Of a DNA stretch of 36,923 nucleotides, positions 3,799 to 16,634 are shown piece by piece. Source of the DNA: Thermoplasmata archaeon (GTDB taxonomy: Archaea > Thermoplasmatota > Thermoplasmata > Lutacidiplasmatales > UBA184); NCBI GenBank assembly GCA_021812305.1, contig JAKAOB010000005.1:1-36923 (forward strand), in the 5' to 3' direction. Position 1 is the stretch's first letter. Every line of letters begins with the position of its first letter. The translations under genes were made by a program, and so were the position numbers. The notes under the pieces are model-generated. The model was not told where the DNA came from. It saw only the letters and a list, made by a program, of their open reading frames with translations, and made no database searches.

Positions 3799-4935
3799 TC
3801 AGCGGGGGTCGGGGTTCCCCACGCTGACCGAATGGATCGCCGGGAACTGGAACGGCACCAGCTTCCACGACCGACCGGCGTCGGGGCTGACGAACAGCTG
3901 TCCGGTCGTCGTGCCCACGTAGATGCCCGCGGGAGCGAGGTTGTCCGTCGCGATCCCCTCGCGCTGCACGCCGAAGTGGCCGGGGAACGCCTTCGCCAAG
4001 AGCAGCTTGCGCCACGTCCGGGTCTTGTCGGTCCACTCCTGGACCTGGAAATGGCCCTCGCCGGTCGTGCGCGCCCGTCCGCCGAGCCGGACGAAGTACG
4101 CCTTGCCCGGGGCGGCGGCCGGCGAGGTGACGCAGAAGCCGAAATCGTCGCCGAGGGGCTTGCCGATCCGCTTCCAGGAGGACATGCGGTCGTGGGAGAC
4201 GTAGATCCCGCCGTGGTCCTGGCGGTAGAAGGTGTCGGGGTCCTTCGCGTCGATGGCGACGTGATGGACGCACTGGCCCGTCTCGGGGAACTTGTTCGGC
4301 AGGAACGGGGCCTCGACGCCCTTGTTGGTCGGGGTCCAGCTCTTCCCGCCGTCCTCCGAGCGGAACGTTCCGACCGACGACATGCCGATGTAGAGGCGGT
4401 TCGAGTCCCGCGGGTCGATGATGATCGTGTGGAGGCATGCTCCGCCGAACCCGGGGGACCAGTCCTTCCGGCTGGGATGCTGGTTGATGGCCTCGATCGG
4501 TTCCCAGCTCGACCCCCGGTCGCGGGACCGGAAGAGCAGGTGGGGGTCCGCCCCGAGATAGAGGGTCTCCGGCTCGCTCGGCAGGCCGGGCTCGATGTGC
4601 CAGAGGTTGTTGAGCGGCCTCGCCACCGGCGCCCCCGGATTCGACTCGTTCATCTGGAACTCGCGTTCCTTGCGCATCGGTGCGAGCGGGGTCGCGATCT
4701 CGGACCAGGTCTTGCCCCAGTTGCGGGAGCGCTGGACCTCGGGCCCGAAGAACATGTTGTTCACGGCCGCGTACACCTCTCCCGGATGCCGCGGGTCCGC
4801 GACGACATGGTAGACCTCGTTGCCCTCGTGCGCGACCGGAGCGACCTTCCACCTCCGGCGCGTACGGTCCGATTCGACGATGTAGGTCCCCTTGCGCGTA
4901 CCCACCAAGATCCGCACTCTGTCGTTCCGTGCCAT
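3799..4935 (-). CDS. BNR/Asp-box repeat (sialidase/VPS10-like) beta-propeller protein
   Basis: Repeated Asp-box-like 'RSRNWGKTWSE', 'RSRDRGSSWEPI', 'RSEDGGKSWTP', 'VSHDRMSSWKRI', 'VSPDAGRSWKLV' across 378 aa. Confidence 0.88.
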   Translation of the reverse strand: MARNDRVRILVGTRKGTYIVESDRTRRRWKVAPVAHEGNEVYHVVADPRHPGEVYAAVNNMFFGPEVQRSRNWGKTWSEIATPLAPMRKEREFQMNESNPGAPVARPLNNLWHIEPGLPSEPETLYLGADPHLLFRSRDRGSSWEPIEAINQHPSRKDWSPGFGGACLHTIIIDPRDSNRLYIGMSSVGTFRSEDGGKSWTPTNKGVEAPFLPNKFPETGQCVHHVAIDAKDPDTFYRQDHGGIYVSHDRMSSWKRIGKPLGDDFGFCVTSPAAAPGKAYFVRLGGRARTTGEGHFQVQEWTDKTRTWRKLLLAKAFPGHFGVQREGIATDNLAPAGIYVGTTTGQLFVSPDAGRSWKLVPFQFPAIHSVSVGNPDPR

Positions 4936-4946
4936 CGCTCTCGTGC

Positions 4947-5225
4947 CTATCCTCCCGCGACCGAATGGAGGATATCGATGGTCTTCGCCCCGTCGAGCGA
5001 AGTGGAGACACCGGTCGTGCCGCTGACGTCGCTGCCGTCCACAAAGACCCGGACGTACCGGCGCAGGTTGCCCGTCTCGTCGCGGATCTTGAAGCGGAGG
5101 CGGGGATAGCGCGCCTCGAGCGCGTCGAGCAACCGAGCGACGGAGTCCGCCTCGACACTTTCGCGGCCGCGCGGACCGTACTCCCTCAGCCAGTTGTCGA
5201 AATGCACCTCAAGCGAGGGGGCCAT
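4947..5225 (-). CDS. MoaD/ThiS-family ubiquitin-like protein (SAMP-like), C-terminal GG
   Basis: 'SVARLLDALEARYPRLRFKIRDETGNLRRYVRVFVDGSDV...LDGAKTIDILHSVAGG'; beta-grasp pattern ending exactly in GG. Start set at ATG 5225; upstream in-frame GTG/TTG also possible. Confidence 0.88.
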   Translation of the reverse strand: MAPSLEVHFDNWLREYGPRGRESVEADSVARLLDALEARYPRLRFKIRDETGNLRRYVRVFVDGSDVSGTTGVSTSLDGAKTIDILHSVAGG

Positions 5226-7470: not shown

Positions 7471-9987
7471 TCAGGCGGGGATCCCCGCCCGGCGTCGAAC
7501 GGCTCCGAGGACCTCCAGCATCTCGAGCCCCCGATGGAGCCCCCGGGTTCCCTCGGGGAACGACTCGCGCGCGAAGAACGTGCGCACTTCGGCCTCCCGC
7601 CCGAGCCCGACGGTGGGCAGGGTGAAGTTGAGGAGGTTCGACAGCCACCAGCTGCCTTCGGCCCGCTTCTCGTACTGCCGGAGGTTTTGGGCGAGCCACT
7701 CCCAGGCGGGCCCCCACCCGAGCGGGTTGCCGGCGACGCTGCGCAGGGCGTAGCAGGTGTGAACGGTCCGCACGGCCGGGTTCGACAGGCGGCCGAGCGC
7801 GTCGCGCAGCAGCGCTTCGGTGGGAAGCGACCCGATCGAGTACGCCGCCCGCTCGGCGAGGTCGTCGCTCGTCTGCGACGTCAGGTGCGCGAACAGGCCG
7901 TCGACGACGCCGGGACCGCCGGTCCGGGCGTACGCCCGCAGCACCGCGGGGCGGATCGCGCCCGGTACCCGATCGATCTCGCCGAACCGGCCGGCCAAGG
8001 AACGGGCGAGCTCCGGATCGACCGGGACCCGTCCGGCGAGGACGGTCTCCCGGAGGACCGGGTCCGTGTCCGGCTCTCCCGGTCGGGCGTCGAGCCCGAG
8101 CCGGTCCCCCTGGACCCGATGGTACGCCGTGTAGGTCCGCTGGAACGCGGGCAGGTCCCGCAGCAGCGGGCGCAGGGAATGGAGCGAGGCCGTGGTCTCG
8201 GCGACCGTCGGATAGTCGACCGCGTCCTTCACCGCCTCCACCACCTCGAGGTAGTCCCCCAGGGAGAGGTCGCCCGAGAGCAGGAACGCGAGCGAGTCGC
8301 TGACGAACGCCCAGCGGTCGATCGGGTCGAGCGACGCAAGGCGCGCGACGGCCGCCGGGCGCAGCGACGGCTCGTACCAGACCCGGAGGAACGCCGACCG
8401 CCCGGGATTGAGCAGGGGGAGTTCGGTCCCCGTCGCCGGCAGGTCGAGCTCCGCTCCCTCGAACAGGCAGCGGTCGCTCGCGCCGTCCAGCCGGTAGGTC
8501 AGCGGGATCGGCCAGGGCGGGTCGGTCGTTTCCGAGGGGAGGAACGAGAACCGCCGCTGGGTAAGGCGGAAACCGTCCGGCCGCCGTCGCACCTCGATGA
8601 CGGGGAACCCCGGTCGGTCGATCCATGCGCCCATCACCCGGCGGACCGGCTGGTCCGACGACCCCTCGAAGGACCGCCACAGGTCGTCGTCCTTCGCATT
8701 GGCGTACTGGAACTTCTCGAGGTACGCCGTGACCCCCCGACGGAACGGTTCCTCGCCCAGGAAGGCCTCGAGCATCCGGACGATGTTGGCGCCCTTGAAG
8801 TAGGTGATGTCGTCGACGCTCTGGCTGATCTCGCTCGGGTCGCGGATCGTCAGCTTGATCGCGTGGGTCGACCGCTGGGAGTCGGCGAAGTACCCCGGAG
8901 AGGCCCGGATGAGGAACTCGCCCCACGCGTCGCGTCGCAGGTGCAGGCGGTCGGACATCTTCGCCGCGACGAACGTCGTGAAGCTCTCATTGAGCCAGAT
9001 GTCGGTCCACCACTCCATCGTGACGAGGTTCCCGAACCACTGGTGCGCGATCTCGTGGGTGAGGGTCTCGATCGCCCAGCGCACGATCGCGGGGCTCGTC
9101 GTCTCGCCCCAGAGCACCCCGACCTCGGGGAAGGTGATCGCCCCCCAGTTCTCCATCCCGCCCGCCCAGAAGTCCGGCACGGCGATCAGATCGAGCTTGC
9201 GGAACGGGTACGGCCGTCGATAGTACTCCTCGTACCCCCGCAGCACGGGGCCGGCCAGCGCCAACGCGCGGGACCCCTCGGCGGCCTTTCCCGGAGCCGC
9301 CGCCACGCCGACCCGGATCCCCTCGTAGGTCGTCGACACCCGGTCGAACGGGCCGATCCCGAGGTAGACCAGGTAGGTCGACATCGGGGGGGTCGGCGCG
9401 AACGCCCAGACCTTCCGTCCGTCCCGTTCGCTCACGGAGGCGACATCGGCGTTCGCGATGACGGTCAGATCCGGGTCGGTCGCCACCGTGAGGCGGACGA
9501 CGGCCTTGCTCGCCGGATGATCGACGCAGGGGAACAGCCAGCGGCAGCCCAGCGGCTGCATCATCGTCGTGAAGAGCTTGTGCTCGCCGAACCGCGAGAC
9601 GTAAAAGCCGTTCATCACGTCCCGGCGGACGGCCCCCGCGTACTCGATCCGGATCGGCAGGTCGCCGGTGACCGGAGGGCGGAGGACGATCTTCTGACGG
9701 GGCTCGTCGACCGCGTACGGCACCTCGGCCCCCCGGCAGGTGGCGCGATGGACCTCGAGGCCCGCGGCGTCCAGCTCGATGACGGCTCCGGCGTCCCGCA
9801 GCGCGACCGTAACGGTGCCGTGAAACCGCTCCGTCTCCGGGTCGACCTCTAGGTCGACCGCGTACTCCTCGACCTTCGTGGCGGGGCCAGCGTACGGCCC
9901 AACATGAACCTGACGCCGGGCCGAGGCGCCCGCGGCGCCGGCGGCGCCGGGCGCCCCGCCCGCCGGAGGATGCGGGATCGGCCCCAT
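7471..9987 (-). CDS. M1 family zinc aminopeptidase (tricorn interacting factor F2/F3-like)
   Basis: 'GGMENWGAITF' exopeptidase motif and 'HEIAHQWFGNLVTMEWWTDIWLNESF' zinc-binding motif. Start set at ATG 9987. Confidence 0.97.
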   Translation of the reverse strand: MGPIPHPPAGGAPGAAGAAGASARRQVHVGPYAGPATKVEEYAVDLEVDPETERFHGTVTVALRDAGAVIELDAAGLEVHRATCRGAEVPYAVDEPRQKIVLRPPVTGDLPIRIEYAGAVRRDVMNGFYVSRFGEHKLFTTMMQPLGCRWLFPCVDHPASKAVVRLTVATDPDLTVIANADVASVSERDGRKVWAFAPTPPMSTYLVYLGIGPFDRVSTTYEGIRVGVAAAPGKAAEGSRALALAGPVLRGYEEYYRRPYPFRKLDLIAVPDFWAGGMENWGAITFPEVGVLWGETTSPAIVRWAIETLTHEIAHQWFGNLVTMEWWTDIWLNESFTTFVAAKMSDRLHLRRDAWGEFLIRASPGYFADSQRSTHAIKLTIRDPSEISQSVDDITYFKGANIVRMLEAFLGEEPFRRGVTAYLEKFQYANAKDDDLWRSFEGSSDQPVRRVMGAWIDRPGFPVIEVRRRPDGFRLTQRRFSFLPSETTDPPWPIPLTYRLDGASDRCLFEGAELDLPATGTELPLLNPGRSAFLRVWYEPSLRPAAVARLASLDPIDRWAFVSDSLAFLLSGDLSLGDYLEVVEAVKDAVDYPTVAETTASLHSLRPLLRDLPAFQRTYTAYHRVQGDRLGLDARPGEPDTDPVLRETVLAGRVPVDPELARSLAGRFGEIDRVPGAIRPAVLRAYARTGGPGVVDGLFAHLTSQTSDDLAERAAYSIGSLPTEALLRDALGRLSNPAVRTVHTCYALRSVAGNPLGWGPAWEWLAQNLRQYEKRAEGSWWLSNLLNFTLPTVGLGREAEVRTFFARESFPEGTRGLHRGLEMLEVLGAVRRRAGIPA

Positions 9988-11710: not shown

Positions 11711-12178
11711 TCACGGTGCCGGAGCCGACCGGGAGGCCCCGGCCCCCACCCGCTCCTGGCAGTAGGCGTACAGGGCGTCGTAGACCGGGAACTGCAGGCG
11801 GAGGCTCTCCTCGTCGGTCGGCGTGGTCCGCCGGAAGCCGGTCGCGAGGGCCGCGAGCCCGGCCGACTCGGGGCGCGGTCGGGAGAGACGGGCATCCGCC
11901 CCGCGGACGATCTCGGCGAGGTCGAGGAGGGCCGGGTCGGTGAGGCCGTAGCGCTCGATCACCGCATCGAAGGTCACACGCTCTTCTCCACCGACCGTCC
12001 GATGGTTCAGCTCGGCCCCCGGAGCATCGAAGGCGATCGCACCCTCCCGACGCGCCACTTCGAGGACCGAGGCGGCCGGCACGAACAGGAACACCGCCTT
12101 CGGATCGACGAACCGCCGGATGACCCAGGGGCACGCGACCCGGTCGACCTTCACTTTCTCGCGCGTCACGAACTTCAT
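11711..12178 (-). CDS. ChrB-like chromate resistance domain protein
   Basis: 'MKFVTREKVKVDRVACPWVIRRFVDPKAVFLFVP' plus 'IAFDAPGAELNHR...VTFDAVIERYGL' match the ChrB C-terminal family pattern. Confidence 0.85.
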   Translation of the reverse strand: MKFVTREKVKVDRVACPWVIRRFVDPKAVFLFVPAASVLEVARREGAIAFDAPGAELNHRTVGGEERVTFDAVIERYGLTDPALLDLAEIVRGADARLSRPRPESAGLAALATGFRRTTPTDEESLRLQFPVYDALYAYCQERVGAGASRSAPAP

Positions 12179-12289
12179 GGACACCTCAGCGCGGGATAGC
12201 ACTTCATCGGATAGCCCCACCCCGACGGTCCGCGCCGGGAAGGAACGGTGCATCCGCGGAGGCCCACGGAAGCCGCGGCAGCGGCCGAG

Positions 12290-15169: not shown

Positions 15170-16634
15170 GCGCGGCGGCCGGTGCCGCCGCCTCGCGCCG
15201 CTCCGGGTACCGGCCCCGTGCCCAGGAGAACGCCGCGGCGAGCGCCAGGATCGCCGCCGAGCCGAAGAGGGCCGCGTGGATGCCCGTCAGGAAGCTCGCT
15301 CCGATCCCCCCCAGCAGGTTCGTCGTCCCGAGGAAGACCTCGTACGCCACGTAGCGGGGTACGCTCGCCGACGCGATCGAGAGGGTAAGGACGAAGCTCA
15401 GCAGCGTGCCCATGTTGGACAGCGTGGCCCGCAGACCGCTCACCGCACCGAACGTCCGCGGCGACGCCTGGCTCATGATCGCGGTGTTGTTCGCCGGCCA
15501 GAACATCCCCCCGCCGAATCCGCTCACGATCGAGATGATCGGGATCCATCCGAGCCAGGCGTCGAGCGACAGCGCGGCGTACGCGAGGACCGCCACCATC
15601 ATCAGCACGATGCCGCCCGTGGCGAGGGCCCGCGGCCCCACCCGGTCGACCTGGCGGCCCATGAACGGCCCCGCGACGGCCCCGACCAGGTAGCCCGGGA
15701 CGAGGAGGATCGAGGCGTCGAGCGGGGAGAGCCCCCGCAGGCCCTGCAGGTACATCGTGAGCAGGAACACGACCGCGAGGTAGCCGAGCGCCTGCAGGAA
15801 GCTCGCCGCGAGCGAGAAGCCGAGCAGGCGCCGGCGGAACTCCGAGAGCTCGAGCATCGGCCGCGCCACGCGCAGCTCGACGGCGACGAACACCGGGAGC
15901 AGGGCGAGCCCGATCGCGACCAGCGCGAGGTTGGTGAGCGTGACCCCGGCCGCGGCGACCTCGATGGTGCCGTAGCAGATCGCGGCCAGGGCCCCCGAGA
16001 ACAGCACGAAGCCGGGCAGGTCGAAGTGGGCGGGCTGGCGGTCGTGGCGCGGAAGGGTCCTCAGGCCAAGGAGGACGGCCCCGACGCCGATCGGGAGGTT
16101 GATGAGGAAGTTGTACCGCCAGCCGAGCGTCGTCGTGATCACCCCGCCGAGGAGCACGCCGAGGATCGCCCCGACGCTCCAGCCGAAGACGAGGAACCCG
16201 AACGGACGGCCGCGGCGCTCCGGTGGGAAGACATGGGCGATCAGGGCTCCGCCGTTCGCGAAGATCACGGCGCCGCCGATCGCCTGGACGGCCCGGGCCG
16301 CGATGAGGAACTCGGCGGTAGGGGCGAAGCCGGAGAGGCCCGAACCGATCGTGAACAGCGCGAAGCCCGCGTTGTAGACGAGCCCGCGGCCCAGCATGTC
16401 GCCGACGCGCCCGGCCTGGGTCGTCAGGACGGCCGTGATGAGCAGGTAGATCAGGATCGTCCAGATCACCGTGTCGAGCGGCGAGACGAGCTCGCGCGCC
16501 ATCGTCGGCAGCGCCAGGATCACGATCGTCGAGTCGACCGACACCATCAGCGAGCCGAGCGTGACGAGGACCAGCACCGCGGTCTCGTGCAGCGGAAGCC
16601 GGGGACCGGGGGCGAGGTCGGCAGCGGAGGCCAT
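15159..16634 (-). CDS. MFS drug/solute exporter (DHA2/EmrB, 14-TM type)
   Basis: 'VTLGSLMVSVDSTIVILALPTMARELVSPLDTVIWTILIYLLITAVLTTQAGRVGDMLGRG' is a DHA2 hallmark; 3' end overlaps the convergent MFS gene by 11 bp. Confidence 0.95.
   Translation of the reverse strand: MASAADLAPGPRLPLHETAVLVLVTLGSLMVSVDSTIVILALPTMARELVSPLDTVIWTILIYLLITAVLTTQAGRVGDMLGRGLVYNAGFALFTIGSGLSGFAPTAEFLIAARAVQAIGGAVIFANGGALIAHVFPPERRGRPFGFLVFGWSVGAILGVLLGGVITTTLGWRYNFLINLPIGVGAVLLGLRTLPRHDRQPAHFDLPGFVLFSGALAAICYGTIEVAAAGVTLTNLALVAIGLALLPVFVAVELRVARPMLELSEFRRRLLGFSLAASFLQALGYLAVVFLLTMYLQGLRGLSPLDASILLVPGYLVGAVAGPFMGRQVDRVGPRALATGGIVLMMVAVLAYAALSLDAWLGWIPIISIVSGFGGGMFWPANNTAIMSQASPRTFGAVSGLRATLSNMGTLLSFVLTLSIASASVPRYVAYEVFLGTTNLLGGIGASFLTGIHAALFGSAAILALAAAFSWARGRYPERREAAAPAAAPTR

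Follow-up and report, generated by a model that had tools for sequence, protein, structure and literature searches.

A gene for a small ubiquitin-fold protein of the ThiS/MoaD type (Ubl), ending in Gly-Gly, lies next to a gene for an Asp-box beta-propeller in a Thermoplasmata archaeon and in many unrelated bacteria; because of this recurrent side-by-side position, it is very probable that the two proteins are functionally linked and form a real and widespread two-gene module. For its role we propose, with slightly less than even confidence and from sequence comparison, that the Ubl is a dedicated sulfur carrier, charged by a shared E1, that serves the propeller as its own client enzyme. The component families were already known; the novelty lies in their forming a conserved module and in the role that it probably plays.

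The two-gene locus in a Thermoplasmata genome

The stretch of DNA analysed, referred to here as the window, comprises 36,923 nucleotides and is contig C5 of a 1.87-Mb assembly that is 80% complete. A preliminary description made from the sequence had proposed a beta-grasp protein of about 92 residues with a Gly-Gly end, located about 11 bp from a co-oriented gene for a propeller of 378 residues. Both open reading frames were confirmed, on the same strand and with the spacing given in Table 1, and the Ubl matched the Pfam ThiS family with 33.5 bits against a cut-off of 22.5. Its C-terminus reads ...DILHSVAGG, and an alternative TTG start 9 bp upstream would give a protein of 95 aa. The two genes probably form a bicistron, and in most relatives the spacers are short or the genes overlap.

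Table 1. Positions of the Ubl-propeller gene pair and its elements in the window
Feature	Coordinates	Strand	Basis
ThiS/MoaD-like (ubiquitin-fold) protein (Ubl), 92 aa	4947..5225	(-)	ATG at 5225, GGA-GGA-TAG at 4955-4947; Pfam ThiS PF02597, CysO/SAMP1 likeness
Terminal glycine codons GGA GGA	4950..4955	(-)	Direct sequence reading; stop TAG 4947-4949 next
Spacer, 11 bp, co-directional genes	4936..4946	(-)	ORF coordinates
Cytoplasmic Asp-box beta-propeller, 378 aa	3799..4935	(-)	ATG at 4935, stop ends at 3799; Pfam BNR/BNR_6/Sortilin-Vps10, AlphaFold, conservation

The absence of molybdopterin and thiamine genes nearby, also part of that description, was upheld, as no Mo-cofactor or thiamine genes were recognised among the scanned window genes. 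Other genes of the window encode a DUF1801 protein, an O-methyltransferase, BioY, a NUDIX protein, an M1 peptidase and transporters. PALP and JAMM, the CysO-type neighbours cysM and Mec, were absent from the flanking window genes scanned, and the window gave no match to RNA families; a defence-system library also yielded no match. A ChrB C-terminal domain protein (chromate-resistance family) is encoded at 11711-12253 on the minus strand, adjoining MFS transporters.

Three ThiS-superfamily genes were detected in the genome, one linked to moaE, one within an E1-rhodanese fusion, and the one linked to the propeller. The first (15774-16010 on contig C29) is followed by moaE (16030-16368), an arrangement shared by relatives. 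It was considered that the Ubl of the pair might be the canonical molybdopterin-synthase small subunit, placed here by chance, which would agree with its ThiS/MoaD Pfam match and with the presence of MoaE in the genome. This identity, which the preliminary description had itself singled out as damaging to its proposal, was looked for and rejected as extremely improbable, given that moaE has a ThiS-family gene of its own immediately in front of it, both here and in relatives; only an unexpected sharing of subunits would leave room for it.

On contig C73 (about 480-2900, loci L002 and L043), a Ubl-E1-rhodanese fusion, a JAMM-like metallopeptidase and a SufR/ArsR-like winged-helix regulator are encoded side by side; these genes were identified by reading their translations and the E1 by Pfam ThiF. 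Judged from these translations, the cluster is probably a compact sulfur-carrier charging unit of the archaeon, its metallopeptidase being a probable JAMM peptidase.

Distribution of the pair in archaea and bacteria

Among the 30 propeller loci fetched from the genus, 29 have the Ubl gene in front of the propeller; the remaining locus holds the second of two propeller copies in a genome (G024) whose other copy is paired. The pair was also found in two genomes of another family within the same class. A scan across prokaryotes confirmed at least 579 propeller relatives, and the analysis retained the best 80 loci among them. Judged by record titles, the paired loci among the matches listed belong to 14 phyla, namely Thermoplasmatota and 13 bacterial phyla: Acidobacteriota, Actinomycetota, Armatimonadota, Chloroflexota, Elusimicrobiota, Gemmatimonadota, Hydrogenedentota, Ignavibacteriota, Latescibacterota, Myxococcota, Nitrospinota, Planctomycetota and Pseudomonadota. 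Many of the sources are metagenome-assembled genomes, and there are isolates as well, among them Anaeromyxobacter, Amycolatopsis, Granulicella, Edaphobacter and Acidipila. The earlier suggestion that MoaD/BNR pairs occur in other genomes is thus borne out among the matches listed, with both gene orders among the 14 phyla taken together; a restriction to close relatives was tested for, and the pair was found in unrelated bacteria.

A set of 117 propeller loci spanned many phyla; 92 of them were paired, with the Ubl gene downstream in 71 and upstream in 21, and 25 had no adjacent Ubl gene (21 with enough flanking sequence and 4 with too little). Changes in order or pairing along the propeller tree numbered 8, compared with 38 in shuffles. 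The upstream order appears in at least two separate places of the tree, Thermoplasmata/Chloroflexi and Pseudomonas/Burkholderia, which indicates that the association survived rearrangement. The distance matrices of Ubl and propeller were strongly correlated (a Mantel r of 0.934 over 92 pairs, where shuffled data never exceeded 0.23, and of 0.893 when only the main bacterial clade was compared), and since shared ancestry and joint transfer both feed this value, it indicates co-inheritance rather than contact.

As a check on the pattern-based scan, an even sample of 118 genomes was taken from the class to which an Amycolatopsis belongs, and the propeller was present in 56 of them. At the 50 loci with enough flank, the seed genome being left out, a Ubl gene adjoins the propeller in 31 (22/29 and 9/21). 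By our own estimate, which assumes few ThiS-family genes per genome of thousands of genes, adjacency of such a gene and the propeller would arise by chance in well under 1% of cases. Actinobacterial genomes carry a second, CysO-like Ubl besides that of the pair. In the unpaired actinobacterial genomes examined, only two other Ubl types were detected, the CysO-like one and one that reads MSV-VRIPTILRTYTGG; in the single genome inspected for it, the latter type has genes for a PLP enzyme (PALP) and for a chaperonin as neighbours.

No fusion of Ubl and propeller in one open frame was present in the loci scanned, and the neighbour scan revealed no third gene recurring at the pair beyond HxlR, DoxX, VOC/glyoxalase, YCII and ECF-sigma. 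These neighbours, seen at L066, L087, L119 and other loci, give a weak signal, mostly from Acidobacteria, and the Pseudomonas pair has a similar YciI/VOC/sigma-factor setting, which suggests a stress-type context. On the P. aeruginosa plasmid pZYPA1927, the pair (L268, 4702-6098) lies between YciI/VOC genes and a YbaK gene; it probably corresponds to PA1355/PA1356 of PAO1. One paper mentions PA1356 briefly. On a plasmid of Rhodobacter sp. CZR27 (L267, 2601-6128), an unpaired, divergent propeller is located beside the ergothioneine genes egtB/egtD, which may hint at a link with sulfur metabolism.

Conserved residues and the candidate role of the two proteins

The propeller exceeded the cut-offs of the Pfam families BNR, BNR_6 and Sortilin-Vps10, and an AlphaFold model (pLDDT 95.7) yielded a full propeller. 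The closest known structure is PDB 3b7f (Reut_B4987), described as a "putative glycosyl hydrolase with BNR repeats" with 7 blades and a function "not known" (PMC2716378); it belongs to the same family across the full length (profile E 1.7e-110; TM 0.86-0.88), and by analogy the propeller studied here would also have seven blades. RefSeq-derived records show the two genes as neighbours, under the names "MoaD/ThiS family protein" and "exo-alpha-sialidase". The latter name, together with the Asp-box propeller fold common to GH33/GH74 enzymes, would favour a glycosidase or sialidase with a merely incidental MoaD neighbour. We regard this as very improbable: the sialidase-like model BNR_2 gave 19.9 bits, under its cut-off of 31.4, Foldseek placed the orphan structure 3b7f nearest (E 9.4e-35) and glycosidases far behind (E 2.5e-13), the protein has no signal peptide, and the pairing is far too recurrent for an incidental neighbour. 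The cytoplasmic location anticipated by the preliminary description agrees with the N-terminal sequence, in which no hydrophobic stretch or signal peptide is visible and the first strand begins at residue 7.

In 105 aligned propellers, H169, C222, H224, H241, R325 and several Trp residues are invariant. The pattern used in the scan contained GQCVH, so the search itself had helped to make the Cys look invariant at first; for this reason, the even actinobacterial sample was drawn without the pattern, and the polar set holds almost throughout it. The paired branch of Pseudomonas, Burkholderia and Cupriavidus has Asp at position 222 and keeps H169, H224, Q239, H241 and R325. In the aligned motifs of 3b7f, the histidines are kept and the Cys is lost, Asp-Pro replacing the Cys-Val that precedes H224, which places this structure with the Asp-222 branch. 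A universal, E3-like thioester on Cys222 was rejected on account of this exchange in a paired branch. The conserved polar set (H169, C/D222, H224, Q239, H241, R325) looks like an active site, and we infer that these residues would form a single pocket; a Cys/Asp exchange amid conserved histidines would be compatible with position 222 serving as a metal ligand or in acid/base chemistry. Of the 117 propellers, 25 have no adjacent Ubl gene, and unpaired propellers keep the same residues, so the enzyme may work without the Ubl or with another carrier.

The paired Ubls are very divergent, and in a 35-sequence alignment only P41, R55, G91 and G92 are invariant. The terminal Gly-Gly is kept in 91 of 92 paired Ubls. 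Its conservation in such divergent proteins, stronger than that of almost all core positions, points to tail chemistry and argues against the Ubl being a non-catalytic partner, that is, a stable small subunit or an allosteric regulator of the propeller with a structural or vestigial Gly-Gly. Several observations would nevertheless suit a non-catalytic Ubl, which we consider unlikely but not negligible: E1 is never a recurrent neighbour, many propellers have no adjacent partner, the paired Ubl of a Nonomuraea (L272) stops just before the Gly-Gly, and in five loci (L057, L069, L087, L103, L108) a short tail extends beyond it. Such extensions resemble those of Ubl precursors, which need trimming. 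At L069, the propeller (7974-9185) has a long lysine-rich C-terminal tail (KKSTSKKKTGTKRATKKPARATRKGK) and directly precedes the Ubl gene.

An E1-like gene was found in 17 of the 18 Thermoplasmata-class genomes tested, in 14 of the 15 that bear the pair, and in 28 of 29 pair-bearing bacteria. The two pair-bearing genomes with no E1 match, G025 (Thermoplasmata class, 95% complete) and G135, may reflect assembly gaps. ThiF is common, occurring in 11 of 14 control genomes, so the presence of an E1 is only consistent with charging. In the loci scanned, genes for E1, JAMM and rhodanese did not recur next to the pair. A precedent for one E1 serving several carriers is given by mycobacterial MoeZR, which, according to PMC3227635, acts in both Moco and cysteine synthesis.

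Another explanation is protein modification, in which the Ubl would be conjugated in the manner of SAMP or Urm1, with lysines on the propeller or on some other target as acceptors, and a JAMM peptidase would remove it. The JAMM-like gene and the Ubl-E1-rhodanese fusion lie together elsewhere in the genome, and archaeal SAMP1 and HvJAMM1 are described in PMC4443979 as regulating MPT synthase reversibly. However, JAMM is not linked to the pair, and the strictly conserved polar set suggests an enzyme rather than a passive target; we hold modification to be a shade less likely than a non-catalytic Ubl. Of the three roles that the preliminary description had left open for the propeller, the retention of active-site-like residues favours a client enzyme, and modifier target and scaffold lose ground.

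In the sulfur-carrier scheme that we prefer, a shared E1-like enzyme, here the Ubl-E1-rhodanese fusion encoded elsewhere, would adenylate the Gly-Gly end of the Ubl, and rhodanese sulfur would turn the adenylated end into a thiocarboxylate. The loaded Ubl would then dock on the propeller and hand its sulfur over in the putative pocket described above, and the propeller would act on a small-molecule substrate. Charging, docking and sulfur transfer are all inferred from sequence. An AlphaFold model of an in-frame read-through of one locus (L136), used as a pseudo-fusion, gave well-folded domains, but its pTM was 0.76, the Gly-Gly tail was disordered (pLDDT <50 for the last three residues) and no docking at a Ubl-propeller interface was confident; as only five rows of its alignment contained both domains, this amounts to a lack of support rather than disproof. 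The broader claim, that in a very widespread and previously undescribed sulfur-transfer or otherwise Ubl-dependent system a Gly-Gly Ubl has the propeller as its dedicated client, in place of MoaE, ThiG, CysM or AOR, is advanced tentatively, as a possibility somewhat short of even.

Significance and relation to known systems

Should the Ubl prove to be charged, the annotations "exo-alpha-sialidase" or "hypothetical" would be masking an entire class of Ubl client enzymes, and the propeller enzyme would be added to the short list of proteins known to accept protein thiocarboxylates. About half of the sampled Actinomycete-class genomes contain the propeller, and Pseudomonas and Burkholderia are further hosts of the pair. 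The pair occurs in both archaea and bacteria, including bacteria that are readily handled in the laboratory; the solved structure 3b7f and culturable hosts make the idea directly testable. Asp-222 relatives of 3b7f in Cupriavidus and Burkholderia have a Ubl gene just upstream.

A literature search, with most subscription papers outside its reach, returned nothing linking MoaD with BNR proteins or propellers, and BNR, sialidase or beta-propeller neighbours are not mentioned by Iyer et al. 2006 (PMC1779556).

The Ubl of the pair resembles both SAMP1 and the archaeal MoaD family but remains under the curated cut-offs of their models (46.9 bits against 60 for NF041918; 36.3 bits against 49.5 for TIGR01687). 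In a profile search, its family had CysO (3dwg, the best match, E 4.9e-17) and SAMP1 as its closest PDB relatives. The mycobacterial CysO/CysM system is accordingly similar in the ubiquitin fold and the C-terminal Gly-Gly of its carrier, whose client enzyme CysM is encoded nearby. In contrast, that client is a PLP cysteine synthase, whereas here it would be a propeller, and neither JAMM nor cysM lies alongside the pair. MoaD/MoaE likewise combines a small ThiS-fold subunit with a client enzyme, although the propeller is unrelated to MoaE. The MoaD-AOR and ThiS/MoaD-E1-JAB operons described by Iyer et al. 2006 (PMC1779556) tie ThiS/MoaD proteins to enzymes outside the ordinary Moco and thiamine operons, as does the pair described here.
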